From the NCBI RefSeq assembly GCF_003148475.1, contig NZ_QGGG01000001.1:372001-436000 (forward strand): a DNA stretch of 64,000 bases. The letters are read 5' to 3'. The DNA comes from Pseudaminobacter salicylatoxidans. Lineage in GTDB: Bacteria > Pseudomonadota > Alphaproteobacteria > Rhizobiales > Rhizobiaceae. A program made the translations under genes and the position numbers. Under the pieces are notes generated by a model. It was not told where the DNA came from. It was given only the letters and a program-made list of their open reading frames with translations, and made no database searches. This document shows positions 19,547 to 26,601 of the stretch, piece after piece; position 1 is the first letter of the stretch; each line of letters starts with the position of its first letter.

Positions 19547-21019
19547 ATGGATTCGCGTTCTGACATGACGGCATCCCGCAAGGGCGAGGGTGGGGCGGAA
19601 ACGGCGCCTTCGTCGCGGCTCGGCCGAATGCGGCTGTTGGTCGCGCTGGATTGCCTGCTGGTTGAAGGAAGCGTGGGCAAGGCAGCCGCCCGGCTGGGCC
19701 TGAGCGATGCCGCCATGAGTCGTCTGCTGAGCCAGGCACGGGCGCTTTATGCCGACCAGCTTTTCATCCGCTCGGGCCGCCGCCTGGTGCCGACGCCCAG
19801 GGCGGAAGCCCTGCGCAAGCGTTTGCGCGCGCTCGCGGCGGAAGCCGATGCCCTTGTGGAAGGCACCGAAACGCCGGTTGCGCAGGATCACGCCGCCGCA
19901 GAGAGCTGGCGCCGCGCGCCGATCATCGAGGCCCCGCCATTGGCCATGCGACCGGCATTCGCACTCGACGACCAGCCTTCGCCCGAGGCGCTCGCGCAGC
20001 AGATCGCCAGGATCCATGAGGAAAACGATCCTCGCCGGCGCGTGGCTAAATACATCGCCACCATCGGGCGCAAGCTGGGCAATTCGCGCCCGCTGACCAT
20101 AGTGGAGGCCGAGGACGCATTCGCGGCCGTTCTGCATGGTGGGGCAGACCCCGCCCAGATAGGCGCGCTGCTGCGGCTGATTAGCTACCGTGGCGAAACC
20201 GCGCCGGAGATAGCGGGCCTGACGCTGGCGGCACGCGGCCGCGCGCTCACGTCTTTCGGGTCCACTGCGCGGGTGGCCGACCTCGATTGGCCGGCCTATC
20301 TGTCGCCGCGTTCCCTGCGCACGCCGTGGTTTCTTCAGGCTGCCTGTCTGGTCGCCAGGGCGGGCTATCGCGTGGTGCTGCACGGAAGTTATGCAAGCGG
20401 GGCGAGCGGCAAGCTCGAATATGCCGCCGATGCGCTGGGCATTCCGATCTGCCTTTCGGTCGCCGAGGCGCATGTGGCGCTGGACAGGGCGAGCATCGCC
20501 TATCTTCCGCTCGCTGCGATCTCACCGCAGATGCAGGGGCTGCTTTCCCTTTATCCGTTATTCGAATCGCGCTCGCCCGCCAACAGCGCCGTGCATCTGC
20601 TCAACCCGCTGGCGGCACGCGCCTCGTTTCTGGGTGTGACCCAGCCTGCCTATCGCGAACTGCATCGCGATGCCGCCGCGCTGCTTGGCTGGAAAGATCT
20701 CACCGTCATCGGCAGCAGCCGGGACGTGGCCGAATGGATTCCGTATCGCTCCATCAGCATCCACCGCCTTGTTGGAGGCGAGGCGAGGGACCAGCGCCTT
20801 CAGGCACTGGAAGAGCCGCGCGCGGAACAGCGGATCGGCTTGACCTCGTTCGAATACTGGCACGCGGTCTGGCAGGGAACGGCGCATGACGAGCGTGCCA
20901 CGCGCATCGTGCTGGCAACGGCCGCGCTCGCGCTGATGACCATTGAAAGGACGGGAGAAGACGGGTTTTCCTCAACTTATCGCAAGGCGGAGATGCTGTG
21001 GAACGCGCGCATGAAGTGA
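19547..21019 (+). CDS. LysR-type HTH fused to a TrpD2/YbiB-like glycosyltransferase-3-fold domain
   Basis: A 490-residue two-domain protein. Residues 25-90 are a LysR-type winged helix (SVGKAAARLGLSDAAMSRLLSQ, then LFIRSGRRLVPTPRAEAL). From about 148 to the end it follows the YbiB/TrpD2 family: a helical N-lobe, LRTPWFLQAACLVARAGYRVVLHG, SGKLEYAADALGIPI, YLPLAAISPQMQGLLSLYPLFESRSPANSAVHLLNPLAA and FLGVTQPAY. The PRPP-binding GTGGD loop of true anthranilate phosphoribosyltransferase is absent. Escherichia coli YbiB binds nucleic acid and has no known enzyme activity. Its position, divergent from the siderophore operon and upstream of exbBD-tonB, suggests a regulator of iron uptake; this is inference. 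No clear RBS precedes ATG 19547. Confidence 0.8.
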   Translation: MDSRSDMTASRKGEGGAETAPSSRLGRMRLLVALDCLLVEGSVGKAAARLGLSDAAMSRLLSQARALYADQLFIRSGRRLVPTPRAEALRKRLRALAAEADALVEGTETPVAQDHAAAESWRRAPIIEAPPLAMRPAFALDDQPSPEALAQQIARIHEENDPRRRVAKYIATIGRKLGNSRPLTIVEAEDAFAAVLHGGADPAQIGALLRLISYRGETAPEIAGLTLAARGRALTSFGSTARVADLDWPAYLSPRSLRTPWFLQAACLVARAGYRVVLHGSYASGASGKLEYAADALGIPICLSVAEAHVALDRASIAYLPLAAISPQMQGLLSLYPLFESRSPANSAVHLLNPLAARASFLGVTQPAYRELHRDAAALLGWKDLTVIGSSRDVAEWIPYRSISIHRLVGGEARDQRLQALEEPRAEQRIGLTSFEYWHAVWQGTAHDERATRIVLATAALALMTIERTGEDGFSSTYRKAEMLWNARMK

Positions 21020-22620: not shown

Positions 22621-23543
22621 GCGTGGCCGCCGAGCATCCTGGCTTCGACGCTCACAGCGCACTTCCCTCGAAGCGGGAAGTGGCAGGCTGGGCGACGGCG
22701 GCGCTGGTCGTGCTGACACTCCATGCAGTGGTCGCGGCCGCTTTCCAATACATGCAGAATGACGCGCCGACCGGCCCGCAGGAGGCGGCGATGGTGGTCG
22801 AGCTTGCGCCATTGCCTTTCGTCGCGCCGAGCGAAGTGGAAAGCGACGTCATACCGGAAGAGGTTTCGCCCGAGATTTCGGACGCCGTCGATGGCATCGA
22901 AACCATCAGCGAGGAAACCGAGACCGCCACGATTGAACAAGACACGGTCGACCCGATCGAGGAAACGCCGGCAGAGCAGGCGGAGCCCGTCGTCGACGAG
23001 GTCAGCGAGGCCGAGCCTGAAGTCGCCGAGCCCGCGATCACAGAGCCGGAAGTGGCGGAAGCCGTCACGCCGGAGGTGGCCGTGCCGCTGCCTACGCCGC
23101 GTCCGAGGGAAAATCCCAAGCCGGCAGAGCCCAGGACGGCTGAGAAGCCGCAACCGGTCAGGAAGGTGGCAAAGGCAAAGCCGGCCGAAAAGATCGCCGA
23201 CAAGCAGGTGGAGCGCCAGGCGAAAGCGGCTACCGCGCCGGCGCCTTCCACGGCTGCCGCCCCATCCGTCAGCCCGGCGCGCTGGCAGGCGAAGGTTCTG
23301 GCCTGGATCAACAGGCACAAGCCGCGTTCCGCACGTGGTCGCGGCACCGTTCAGGTCAGTTTCTCGATCGGTCCGTCCGGGGATGTCCTGTCTGCAAAGG
23401 TGCAGCGTTCATCCGGTGATTCCGATTTGGATCGGGCCGCGATCGACATGGTGATGCGCTCTTCACCCGTTCCGGCACCCCCGCCGGAAATCGCCAGGGC
23501 GCGCATGAACCTGTCTCTGCCCGTGCAGTTCAGCATACGCTGA
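22617..23543 (+). CDS. tonB: Energy transducer TonB
   Basis: A 308-residue TonB. One N-terminal membrane span (about residues 23-44) is followed by a long acidic and proline-rich periplasmic linker (about 55-200, rich in Glu, Val and Pro) that becomes Lys/Pro-rich. The C-terminal domain spans about 220-308 (WQAKVLAWINRHKP, GTVQVSFSIGPSGDVLSAKVQRSSGDSDLDRAAIDMV). It couples ExbBD energy to the outer-membrane receptors, including the siderophore receptor at 17195-19405. The cobalamin riboswitch begins about 110 bases downstream but belongs to the next transcript. Confidence 0.93.
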   Translation: MSVAAEHPGFDAHSALPSKREVAGWATAALVVLTLHAVVAAAFQYMQNDAPTGPQEAAMVVELAPLPFVAPSEVESDVIPEEVSPEISDAVDGIETISEETETATIEQDTVDPIEETPAEQAEPVVDEVSEAEPEVAEPAITEPEVAEAVTPEVAVPLPTPRPRENPKPAEPRTAEKPQPVRKVAKAKPAEKIADKQVERQAKAATAPAPSTAAAPSVSPARWQAKVLAWINRHKPRSARGRGTVQVSFSIGPSGDVLSAKVQRSSGDSDLDRAAIDMVMRSSPVPAPPPEIARARMNLSLPVQFSIR

Positions 23544-23651
23544 CGTAAAATCGACCTTACATCCGCAATCCGTGGCCTGTCGTCTTTGCGCTTCGGCGAT
23601 GTCGCATTCATGCGGGCGCAGCACCGCATTCGATGATTAGATCGGGACACT

Positions 23652-23827
23652 TCAGGTGCCGGTGTCGTGAAGGCGACACTGGAGAATTGGGAAGCCGGTG
23701 AAAGTCCGGCGCTGCCCCCGCAACGGTGGTGGAGTGTGTCATGGTGGGAGACCACTGGGCGAAAGCCCGGGAAGGTATCCGTGACGGTTCTGCAGAACCA
23801 GCTCCTTAGCCCGGAAACCAGCCTGAA
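23652..23827 (+). ncRNA. Cobalamin (B12) riboswitch
   Basis: The conserved blocks of the adenosylcobalamin riboswitch appear in order. CAGGTGC is at about 23654. GCCGGTGAAAGTCCGGC (23694-23710) is followed by GCTGCCCCCGCAACGG. Then come CCACTGGGC, GCCCGGGAAGGT, and the B12 box AGCCCGGAAACCAGCCTG (23808-23825). It lies on the plus strand 138 bases before the Rieske oxygenase gene and after tonB, so it should control the GbcAB-like operon. I see no strong intrinsic terminator after it, so control of translation or Rho access is possible. Confidence 0.95.
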
Positions 23828-23965
23828 GTCGTTTTAACCCCGACTGATCGCGGTGGGCGGTCAAGTGGCGGATTCTTGCGCGGAAAGCCCCTGCGGGCCG
23901 ATTGCGCAACCATCCACCTCTGAAATCACCACCAGTTCAGTCCTTGTGCGATGCGAGGACAGGAC

Positions 23966-25213
23966 ATGGATGCACGCGCCGACATGCTGAGGCGGATCAG
24001 AAGCCGCCGTGAGGGCTTCAGCCTCGAACAGCCCTTCTATATCGACCCCGACTATTTCAAGCTGGATCTGGAACTGATCTGGTATCGTGACTGGCTCTTC
24101 ATCGGCCACGATTGCGAACTGCCCAGGATCGGCAGCTACATGACCGTGCAGATCGGGGATTACCCGGTGGTCATCGTGCGCGACCAGAAGGGCGATATAC
24201 GCGCCTTCCACAATTCCTGCCGCCATCGCGGCAGCCGCGTCTGCACCGCTCACAAGGGCACGGCTGCCAAGCTGGTGTGCCCCTATCACCAGTGGACCTA
24301 TGAACTCGACGGCCGCCTCCTGTTCGCACGTCAGGTGTGCGACGATTTCGACGCCAGCCAGTTCGGGCTGAAGCCCGTGGCTTGCGAGAGCGTAGGCGGC
24401 TACATCTTCATCTGCCTGGCCGACCAGCCGGCCGACTTCACGCCGATGCGGGCAATGATCGAACCTTACCTTGCGCCACACCGGCTGACGGAGGCCAAGG
24501 TCGCCTTCGAAAGCACCATCATTGAAAAGGGCAACTGGAAGCTGGTGTGGGAAAACAACCGCGAGTGCTACCACTGCGCGGGCAACCATCCCGAACTCTG
24601 CAAGACTTTCCCCGAGGCACCGACCATCACCGGCGTCAATGGCGCGGAGAGCGACCCGGAAATGGTGGCGCATTGGGAAAAGTGCGAGGCTTCCGGCCTG
24701 CCGAGCAAGTTCCGCATCGACCCCGCCGGCCAGTACCGGGCCACGCGCGCGCCGCTGTTGCGCGATGCCGTCAGCTACACCATGACGGGCAGGCAGGCGG
24801 TGAAGCGCAACCTTTCCGACAGCGTGTCCACTGAGCGCATCGGCTCGCTGCTGCTCTATCATTATCCGACGACGTGGAACCACGTTCTGGGCGACCATGC
24901 GGTAACGTTCCGCGTGCTGCCCATCAGCGCCACCGAAACGGCCGTCACCACCAAATGGCTGGTCCACAAGGATGCGGTGGAAGGGGTCGACTACGATCTC
25001 GCCGAACTTACCCATGTGTGGACCGAGACCAACGATCAGGACCGCCGCATCGTCGAGGAGAATGCCTTCGGCATCAAGTCGCCGGCCTATGAACCCGGTC
25101 CTTATTCCGAGGTGCATGAGGGCGGCGTGATCCAGTTCGTCGAATGGTATTGCAACTTCATCGAGCCGCGTCTTGCCACCGGTGATCAGCCGGCGCTGCG
25201 CAGCGTCGCCTGA
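23966..25213 (+). CDS. gbcA: Rieske-type aromatic-ring-dioxygenase-family demethylase, GbcA-like
   Basis: A 415-residue oxygenase alpha subunit. The Rieske [2Fe-2S] site is CRHRGSRVC...CPYHQW (about residues 88-115). The mononuclear iron site is around NNRECYHCAGNHPEL (about 199-213), with the remaining acidic ligand expected near the C terminus. It resembles GbcA, which demethylates glycine betaine oxidatively to dimethylglycine and formaldehyde; stachydrine (proline betaine) demethylase is the main alternative. Start ATG 23966 has GAGGAC upstream; ATG 23951 is less likely. The operon continues with its reductase. It is unusual in lying directly behind a cobalamin riboswitch. Confidence 0.88.
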   Translation: MDARADMLRRIRSRREGFSLEQPFYIDPDYFKLDLELIWYRDWLFIGHDCELPRIGSYMTVQIGDYPVVIVRDQKGDIRAFHNSCRHRGSRVCTAHKGTAAKLVCPYHQWTYELDGRLLFARQVCDDFDASQFGLKPVACESVGGYIFICLADQPADFTPMRAMIEPYLAPHRLTEAKVAFESTIIEKGNWKLVWENNRECYHCAGNHPELCKTFPEAPTITGVNGAESDPEMVAHWEKCEASGLPSKFRIDPAGQYRATRAPLLRDAVSYTMTGRQAVKRNLSDSVSTERIGSLLLYHYPTTWNHVLGDHAVTFRVLPISATETAVTTKWLVHKDAVEGVDYDLAELTHVWTETNDQDRRIVEENAFGIKSPAYEPGPYSEVHEGGVIQFVEWYCNFIEPRLATGDQPALRSVA

Positions 25214-25227
25214 GGCGGGAGAAGACC

Positions 25228-26334
25228 ATGAACGCCATGACTTCAATCGGTCTCTACCGGCATCTCGATGAGATGGCGCCCTGGAACGACAGGCTGCAGG
25301 TGCTGGAATGCATCGGCGTAACGGACGAGGCGCCTCAGGTGAAGACCTTCACCTTCCGCTCTGACAACCAGACCTGGTTCCGCTACCAGCCGGGTCAGTT
25401 CGTCACGCTGGAATTGCCGGCAGGCACAGAGCCGGTACTGCGCACCTATACGCTCTCGTCCAGCCCCTCACGGCCATTTTCCATTGCGGTGACGGTCAAG
25501 GCGCAGGCCGACAGCATCGGGACGCGCTGGATGTTCGATCACCTGCGGCCGGGCATGCATGTCAAAGCCTATGGTCCGGCCGGCGATTTTTCGCTGCACA
25601 ACCACCCTGCGGCGAAATATCTGTTCATCTCGGCGGGGTCGGGCATCACGCCGATGATGTCGATGACCCGCTGGCTGAACGATTTTGCGCCGCAGACCGA
25701 CATTGCCTTCGTCAACTGCGCGCGGCGGCCGGAGGAGATCATCTTCCGCAAGGAACTGGAACTGCTCGGCAACCAGATGCCGGGCCTCTCGCTCGGCTTC
25801 CTGGTCGAGGAACGGTCGAGCCGCGAAAGCTGGTTCGGCCATATGGGGCGCATCGACGCCGTGCGCCTGCCACTGCTTTCGCCCGATTTCCGCGAGCGCG
25901 AGATATTCTGTTGCGGGCCGGAGCCCTTCATGTGCGCCGTACGCCAGTTGCTGGAAACGGCCGGCTTCGACATGGCGCACTATCATCAGGAAAGCTTTGG
26001 TGCGCCACCGGTGGAGCCGGTGTCCTTCGCCGACAACTTGCCGGGCGAGGCGGGAGTGGATGGACCCGTCGAAGCAACGCCTATCCGCTTCTCGCTTTCC
26101 GAAGTCGATGCCGAATGCGTTGCAGGCCAGACTGTCCTGCAGACCGCGCGCGCGGCCGGCGTGCGCATTCCGGCTGCCTGCGAATTCGGCCTGTGCGGCA
26201 CCTGCAAGGTGAAAAAAATCTTCGGTGAGGTTGAGATGAACCACAATGGAGGCATTCTCGATCATGAGATCGCCGACGGTTTTGTGCTGGCCTGCTGCTC
26301 ACGTCCGCTTTCGGCTCTCGAGATAGAGGCCTGA
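25228..26334 (+). CDS. gbcB: Ferredoxin-NAD(P)H reductase component, GbcB-like
   Basis: A 368-residue reductase with three modules: an FAD-binding domain (about 25-125, RTYTLSSSPS), an NAD(P)-binding domain (about 130-250, LFISAGSGITPMMSM, CCGPEPFMCAV) and a C-terminal plant-type [2Fe-2S] ferredoxin domain (CEFGLCGTCKV...CC, about 312-355). This FAD-NAD-Fd order is that of GbcB. It supplies electrons to the Rieske oxygenase encoded 14 bases upstream. Confidence 0.9.
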   Translation: MNAMTSIGLYRHLDEMAPWNDRLQVLECIGVTDEAPQVKTFTFRSDNQTWFRYQPGQFVTLELPAGTEPVLRTYTLSSSPSRPFSIAVTVKAQADSIGTRWMFDHLRPGMHVKAYGPAGDFSLHNHPAAKYLFISAGSGITPMMSMTRWLNDFAPQTDIAFVNCARRPEEIIFRKELELLGNQMPGLSLGFLVEERSSRESWFGHMGRIDAVRLPLLSPDFREREIFCCGPEPFMCAVRQLLETAGFDMAHYHQESFGAPPVEPVSFADNLPGEAGVDGPVEATPIRFSLSEVDAECVAGQTVLQTARAAGVRIPAACEFGLCGTCKVKKIFGEVEMNHNGGILDHEIADGFVLACCSRPLSALEIEA

Positions 26335-26337
26335 CGC

Positions 26338-26601
26338 ATGGGATCGCAAAGATTGCCCGGCGTCGCGCTGCGCGGGAACATGCATTGGGGGCCGGCCGAG
26401 GCAGGCGGAGAACCACAGCCGGAGGACATACTCATGGCATGGCTGCTGTGGCTGCCGCACGATGCCGATGTCGCAAAGGCGGCCGCGGATGAGGTCGCCC
26501 GCATAGACCTTCGGCATCCTATTCCGGAAGGCGCGGCGCGCCTGCGCGAACTGCTGCTTCAGCTTGTCGAAAGGCCGCTTTCGAACTTCGGAAGGGCATG
26601 A
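26338..26601 (+). CDS. Small hypothetical protein in the gbcAB operon
   Basis: An 87-residue protein starting 3 bases after the gbcB stop, behind GAGG. I do not recognise a domain. It has a Trp-rich central segment (MAWLLWLPHDADVAKAA) and a helical, Leu-rich C terminus (RLRELLLQLVERPLSNFGRA), with no signal peptide. The tight spacing argues that it is translated with the oxygenase and reductase, perhaps as an accessory or assembly factor. Confidence 0.6.
   Translation: MGSQRLPGVALRGNMHWGPAEAGGEPQPEDILMAWLLWLPHDADVAKAAADEVARIDLRHPIPEGAARLRELLLQLVERPLSNFGRA

Follow-up and report, generated by a model that had tools for sequence, protein, structure and literature searches.

The B12-independent isozyme rule has been stated for metE and proposed for a desaturase, and in the metE/metH pair a B12-free enzyme lies behind a cobalamin riboswitch and is tied to a B12-dependent counterpart (passages of PMC2211319). 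For betaine, MtgC and MtgD of the corrinoid-dependent methyltransferase system MtgBCDE are required for growth of Ruegeria pomeroyi on this compound, and GbcAB constitutes the other aerobic route, used by Pseudomonas and Chromohalobacter (as set out in parts of PMC12478193). The glycine betaine monooxygenase GbcAB/BmoAB combines a Rieske oxygenase with an FAD/2Fe-2S reductase. Quaternary-amine Rieske oxygenases are divided at a single position, two residues before the bridging Glu that is followed by a Cys-x-x-Cys: group Va enzymes carry Tyr/Phe, and group Vb enzymes (GbcA, BmoA and Stc2) carry Asn (passages of PMC7948474).

We analyzed a window of 64,000 nucleotides from Pseudaminobacter salicylatoxidans (contig NZ_QGGG01000001.1, positions 372,001 to 436,000 of the forward strand), in which a gbcAB-like operon is preceded by a cobalamin riboswitch. 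The arrangement resembles metE/metH, whereas the predicted function is catabolic rather than biosynthetic and would involve an oxygenase releasing formaldehyde instead of a methyl transfer. The locus shares with GbcAB/BmoAB the oxygenase–reductase composition and the group Vb Asn, but its proteins score below the NCBIfam equivalog cut-offs and a cobalamin riboswitch precedes them. It shares a predicted substrate with the R. pomeroyi MtgBCDE system, homologues of which are encoded in the genome of the window, although that corrinoid-dependent methyltransferase belongs to a protein family unrelated to the oxygenase. By analogy, we regard the operon as an extension of the known MetE/MetH-type logic to a new case. 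With a probability of roughly three in four, it is a cobalamin-repressed, B12-independent stand-in for glycine betaine demethylation by the corrinoid system MtgB–MtgC–MtgD. This reading starts from the riboswitch, the Rieske/reductase pair, the corrinoid system of the same genome and their linked presence and absence across genomes, all seen directly in the sequences, and extends to a predicted sign of regulation, translational mechanism and substrate. If it is true, the B12-isozyme rule would reach beyond methionine and deoxynucleotide synthesis to cover how an abundant environmental osmolyte is used, and would indicate when bacteria of soil and roots consume betaine with oxygen instead of via corrinoids.

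The original prediction knew of no description of this pairing, and our literature search, with most subscription papers outside its coverage, likewise found none for a cobalamin riboswitch and a betaine Rieske oxygenase. PMC12478193 discusses vitamin B12, betaine and gbcA, and in the passages covered the word riboswitch appears in a reference title only. The relevant passages of PMC2667541, a paper that joins B12 riboswitch, dioxygenase and rhizobia, concern nickel and cobalt, and a Sinorhizobium meliloti small-RNA survey reports three cobalamin riboswitches, the word betaine being absent from the parts covered (PMC2573895).

The aptamer is the sole RNA family reaching its gathering score in the entire window. 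It matches the cobalamin riboswitch family RF00174 over the complete model (positions 1–189) at 23637..23840 on the plus strand, with a cmscan score of 111.3 bits against a gathering score of 31.5, and contains the B12 box AGCCCGGAAACCAGCC (23808..23823, plus strand), which served as a marker across orthologues. The covariance-model search agrees with the original prediction of a complete B12 riboswitch on the plus strand before the oxygenase; the predicted start, 23652, falls within the aptamer, but the true start is 15 nt earlier. The riboswitch does lie shortly upstream of the oxygenase, as predicted, but its distance to the start codon is 110 nt (start at 23951) or 125 nt (start at 23966), not exactly 138. 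An exbB-exbD-tonB set lies upstream of the riboswitch and ends at 23543. A scan of 23400–24100 for sigma-70-type promoter and intrinsic-terminator consensus sequences, with other promoter types outside its scope, returned none, which argues weakly against a promoter or terminator between the riboswitch and the gene. Farther upstream, at 19547–21019 of the window, a LysR-type helix-turn-helix domain (PF00126) is fused to a TrpD-like glycosyltransferase-family domain (PRK09071 family).

ORFs and family scans confirmed the predicted gene order, in which the riboswitch is followed by a Rieske oxygenase/reductase pair and a small protein, all on the plus strand. The gbcA-like oxygenase P0001 (PF00355, PF00848) occupies 23966..25213, with a longer alternative start at 23951; the ATG at 23966, with GAGGA upstream, is more likely the start. 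The gbcB-like FAD/NAD/2Fe-2S reductase (PF00970, PF00175, PF00111) follows at 25228..26334, and a conserved ORF of 87 residues, which matched nothing in Pfam or NCBIfam, closes the set at 26338..26601. In the fetched stretches, a gbcB match is missing beside seven gbcA orthologues (L014, L019, L105, L112, L120, L131 and L140) and in 15 named Rhizobium-type loci (L206–L237); all of these loci are riboswitch-negative except L131 and L140.

The best NCBIfam match of the oxygenase is GbcA (NF058607), with 533.3 bits for a cut-off of 670, and that of the reductase is GbcB (NF058606), with 371 bits for a cut-off of 500, so that both fall short of equivalog membership. P0001 carries the group Vb Asn in the motif NRECYHC (Asn-Arg-Glu-Cys-Tyr-His-Cys) at residue 203. 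Its predicted assignment as a GbcA-type enzyme holds as far as the group Vb signature and the neighbors of some orthologues go, which fit betaine, but fails at the NCBI cut-off; since the Asn signature is present and the score is too low, GbcA-like is the right label. The closest PDB chains are Stc2-type (stachydrine-demethylase-type) sequences, at 543 bits. PDB entry 3vca is presumably Stc2, a name supported by passages of PMC10952381 and PMC7948474. The nearest orthologues in named records, among which those nearest the genome of the window were possibly left out, are from Mesorhizobium (87–88% identical).

What the oxygenase demethylates bears on an alternative that keeps the switch logic and changes the substrate: the enzyme would act on another betaine, such as proline betaine, and replace another MttB-type methyltransferase. 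The unreached GbcA cut-off, the similar score to Stc2-type PDB chains and the presence of four MttB paralogues in the genome of the window speak for it. However, Stc2, the S. meliloti stachydrine demethylase, shares group Vb membership with P0001 at only about 57% identity, and Stc2-type sequences form a separate clade next to stc3/stc4 on pSymA, with no cobalamin riboswitch near the gene in the fetched stretch; we rejected stachydrine demethylase as the identity of P0001 on the basis of this separate clade. Several orthologues also have betaine-like surroundings. Without a riboswitch, the Paracoccus versutus orthologue (L284) adjoins fdhA, a BCCT transporter, a GlxA-family regulator and folD/etf genes, and an Agrobacterium orthologue (L285) adjoins fdhA; the riboswitch-bearing loci L199, L201 and L094 have an fdhA relative nearby that matches the annotated ones at 87–91%. 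Such surroundings are not a general feature, since the FdhA query matched five of 215 loci, and the ORFs and NCBIfam scan of the window revealed neither fdhA nor a transporter beside the operon. Because of the fdhA/BCCT/GlxA neighbors of some orthologues and the separate stachydrine clade, glycine betaine is the likeliest substrate and the other-betaine alternative is unlikely.

The preferred reading, a stand-in for corrinoid-dependent betaine demethylation, predicts a B12-dependent counterpart in the same cell, and the genome of the window (4.84 Mb in 43 contigs) encodes one. Besides the four MttB proteins (PF06253), it holds MtgC-like, MtgD-like, MtgE and RamA-like proteins. On contig C17, an MttB adjoins an MtgC-like corrinoid protein, a methylene-THF-reductase-like protein, an MtgD-like methyltransferase (396 bits, cut-off 259) and a RamA/AcsV-like protein, and an MtgE/BHMT protein (561 bits, cut-off 338) is encoded some kilobases away. 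The MtgC-like protein scores 210 bits, below the NCBIfam NF047996 cut-off of 370, and owes its assignment to the surrounding gene cluster and to what is described for Ruegeria. A metH gene lies just outside the window, ending about 0.4 kb ahead of its first base.

Corrinoid riboswitches are described as repressing through a kissing loop between L5 and L13 that stabilizes P13, and a single activating corrinoid riboswitch has been described (passages of PMC10653944). Elements compatible with such a platform are found in the window. The aptamer L5 region GCUGCCCCCGCAAC (23711..23724, plus strand) is a candidate kissing-loop partner: a P13-like hairpin (23844..23865, plus strand) displays the loop L13, GCGGUGGGC (23850–23858), which is complementary to GCCCCCGC within L5. 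The exact L13 motif was detected in 82 of 85 riboswitch-bearing loci versus 86 of 8500 shuffles, and in 80 of the 82 a hairpin carries it in its loop (dG ≤ −2, a count without shuffled control). Downstream, CCACCAGUUCAGUC (23929..23942, plus strand) is a proposed anti-sequestor that would pair with P13/L13, with a duplex energy of −18.8 kcal/mol in the window. It overlaps the left arm of a proposed hairpin, AGUCCUU...AGGACA (23939..23961, plus strand), that would hide the Shine-Dalgarno sequence, and the two pairings plausibly form an off/on pair. The anti-sequestor motif was found in 30 of 82 loci, with a mean z of −0.96 across the 82 that is weak in general, and crude energies of hybrids between Shine-Dalgarno sequence and linker over 85 loci were not above chance (mean z −0.2). 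We therefore put forward B12-dependent translational repression as a proposal.

According to this proposal, plentiful cobalamin would be bound by the riboswitch, L13 would kiss L5 and a downstream hairpin would cover the ribosome-binding site and prevent synthesis of the oxygenase and reductase, while betaine methyl groups would be routed via MtgC into folate or methionine. Under cobalamin scarcity, P13 would open and expose the ribosome-binding site, and the Rieske pair would then demethylate betaine with O2 and NADH, yielding dimethylglycine and formaldehyde.

We compared the occurrence of the riboswitch and of the corrinoid system across 297 genomes of the family. P0001 found matches at E ≤ 1e-100 in 147 of them, of which 120 were kept (best match at least 63% identical, 48 genera); left out were the Stc2-type matches at 56–58%, matches below 50% and one genome (G269) in which the match spans residues 5–324 and contains two stop codons. 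MtgC was scored in the same 297 genomes, matches weaker than 1e-80 being called absent, which within the 120 concerned four genomes with matches of about 1e-30 to 1e-32 (G108, G187, G247 and G300). The riboswitch was present at 85 of the 120 loci, 20 identified by cmscan and 65 by a B12 box (at most one mismatch, 90–190 nt upstream), and each of the 35 negative loci was checked by cmscan. Both features were present in 81 genomes and both absent in 33; four had the riboswitch only and two MtgC only, which amounts to agreement in 114 of 120 and places MtgC in 81 of the 85 riboswitch-bearing genomes. The two features vary together inside each of three genera that contain both states. MttB occurs in 218 of the 297 genomes and in none of the 37 MtgC-negative genomes among the 120.

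Two further sets of genomes gave comparable results. In these replicates, weak MtgC matches (G675, G659 and the genome of L207) were called absent and a split match at 1e-45 (the genome of L177) present. The named set, which overlaps the family set in part, comprised 49 of 80 named loci; its riboswitches were scored by the B12 box, with cmscan for seven of the 49. All 27 riboswitch-positive named genomes have MtgC (one gene is split by an apparent frameshift), and 21 of the 22 negative ones lack it, the exception being Ciceribacter lividus (L233), so that 48 of 49 agree. Outside the family, among nine orthologues that are 52–73% identical, five genomes have both features, two neither and two MtgC only (seven of nine in agreement). 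Together with the corrinoid route in the genome of the window and the agreement within the family, these counts support the predicted role as a B12-independent alternative to corrinoid methyl-group use: the observation is confirmed, and whole-genome comparison backs the stand-in interpretation. The link is not obligatory, because some MtgC-positive genomes have no riboswitch (2 of 83 in the family, 1 of 28 in the named set and 2 of 7 outside the family).

Kinship among the genomes was taken into account using the oxygenase gene tree, which requires at least 11 changes of the riboswitch state and at least 10 of the MtgC state. The riboswitch differs within six supported independent pairs; MtgC differs in the same direction in about five, in the opposite direction in none and not at all in one (sign test, median p 0.0625). 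A four-state model of dependent evolution fitted better than independent evolution (LR 44.8, 4 df, p about 4e-9), and in it the riboswitch is lost about nine times faster when MtgC is absent than when it is present. Since this is a simple fit on a gene tree, the result is support for a linkage between riboswitch and MtgC, short of proof.

Synthesis of B12 itself offers a different account of the switch. The operon could belong to the biosynthesis regulon, in which case low B12 would turn on demethylation of betaine as a source of glycine (for 5-aminolevulinate) or of one-carbon units that go into the corrin ring. Betaine increases industrial B12 output (in the parts of PMC8123684 considered), and by our own sequence reading a cobF-like gene lies near the riboswitch–gbcAB unit in Inquilinus limosus (L188:6764-7525) and Labrys (L199:8167-8937). 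The genome of the window carries seven cobalamin riboswitches. Judged by position and family scans, five of them precede genes that are transport-like or serve B12 synthesis: cbtA-cobU-cobO, cobW-cobN, a BtuB-like receptor with an ABC system, bluB, and an ABC transporter of unclear substrate whose best family match, a siderophore-binding protein, is below cut-off. The other two precede Rieske oxygenases: one stands before the window operon, the other before a small ORF with a second oxygenase, P0004, behind it. However, the CobF query matched four of the 215 loci examined, and CobN, a proxy for B12 synthesis, was found in 24 of 33 genomes with neither riboswitch nor MtgC and was absent from 5 of 40 with both (present in 35), as well as being present in 4/4 riboswitch-only and 2/2 MtgC-only genomes. 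Synthesis fails to predict the riboswitch and MtgC does, so we rejected B12 synthesis as the driver of riboswitch presence and consider this account improbable. A general loss of cobalamin riboswitches from the negative genomes was rejected as well, since all 61 genomes tested, including the 39 discordant or doubly negative ones and among these the 35 with riboswitch-negative loci, carry at least one. Separately, five genomes (G036, G062, G087, G198 and G309) combine the gbcA riboswitch and MtgC with no CobN match and possibly depend on outside B12.

The four riboswitch-only genomes belong to one genus (L136, L138, L141 and L146), lack both MtgC and MttB, and have riboswitch scores of 56–61 bits. 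In the two riboswitches that were aligned (L138 and L146), the CCACUG/GGGAAGG consensus core element is missing, and two of the four have either an altered L13 or none that could be located. The pattern resembles decay that followed loss of the corrinoid system. MtgC without the riboswitch was seen in two family genomes, both from one other genus. That the riboswitch came from a neighboring B12 gene and is without function, or that it activates in response to B12, is very improbable: divergent riboswitches do lie close by in Labrys (L199) and at L275, and an activating corrinoid riboswitch is known (PMC10653944, in part), but many genera conserve both the aptamer and L13, the riboswitches aligned from the MtgC-less genus look damaged and presence tracks MtgC.

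Two S. meliloti records labeled pSymB (L282 and L283) hold an oxygenase orthologue with a 100-bit cobalamin riboswitch. The upstream neighbors in L282, encoding an FAD-binding oxidoreductase, a threonylcarbamoyl-AMP synthase and a hypothetical protein, are alike, by eye, to those of riboswitch-less Rhizobium and Agrobacterium loci; because of this match, they probably represent one ancestral locus with and without the switch. A 2006 study of S. meliloti inferred a second betaine-demethylating route, which PMC12478193 (in the passages concerned) assigns to MtgBCD, and the riboswitch-borne oxygenase of these two records would be a further, B12-free route.

The second oxygenase of the genome, P0004 (L038:4385-6348, also L243, contig C5), has its own cobalamin riboswitch (65 bits) and carries the group Va Tyr in YVECYHC at residue 206. 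A relative of the 87-residue ORF sits between this riboswitch and P0004. The small-protein family shares the motif P-x-P-E-[DE]-[IV]-F...W-L...A-A-R...I-D-R-R, and among the 120 family loci, searched over at least about 1.5 kb beyond the oxygenase gene, relatives occur at 30 of 81 loci with riboswitch and MtgC versus none of the 39 others. In two genomes (G089 and G296), gbcA is followed on the same strand, 1.4 and 2.5 kb beyond its end, by a P0004 orthologue, and the small ORF lies between the two genes; because the orthologue lies so shortly past gbcA, it may share the gbcB-like reductase there.

P0004 has 33 matches of at least 75% identity across the 297 family genomes, its own included. 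Across 30 fetched orthologue loci, again with its own, the upstream riboswitch was seen in the genus of the window only: by cmscan at its own locus (L243) and L244, and at L245 by a mismatch-free B12 box together with a genome-wide hit there. The 19 loci L246–L264 have none by cmscan, including two with two-mismatch boxes (L247 and L256), and L265–L272 were judged by the B12 box alone. An mttB gene, first picked up as a PYLIS_3 match inside it, adjoins the P0004 orthologue at 7 of the 30 loci (L246, L247, L257, L265, L266, L267 and L271) versus none of 215 other loci, and these genes are 63–83% identical to the contig-C6 MttB of the window's genome. This fits P0004 as an oxygenase paired with its own corrinoid methyltransferase.

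We tentatively extend the stand-in reading to a general hand-over that would spare B12 in many rhizobia and in several alphaproteobacteria besides, a scheme we hold somewhat short of an even chance. Cobalamin riboswitches would shift quaternary-amine demethylation from MttB/MtgC to Rieske oxygenases, leaving the remaining corrinoid for methionine synthesis. The genus of the window would then have a group Vb and a group-Va-Tyr oxygenase, each with its own MttB-type methyltransferase and both with a small protein of one family that possibly assists them. Behind the P0004 locus come a TPP riboswitch (L243:2891-2992) and genes that by eye are thiO/S/G/E-like.
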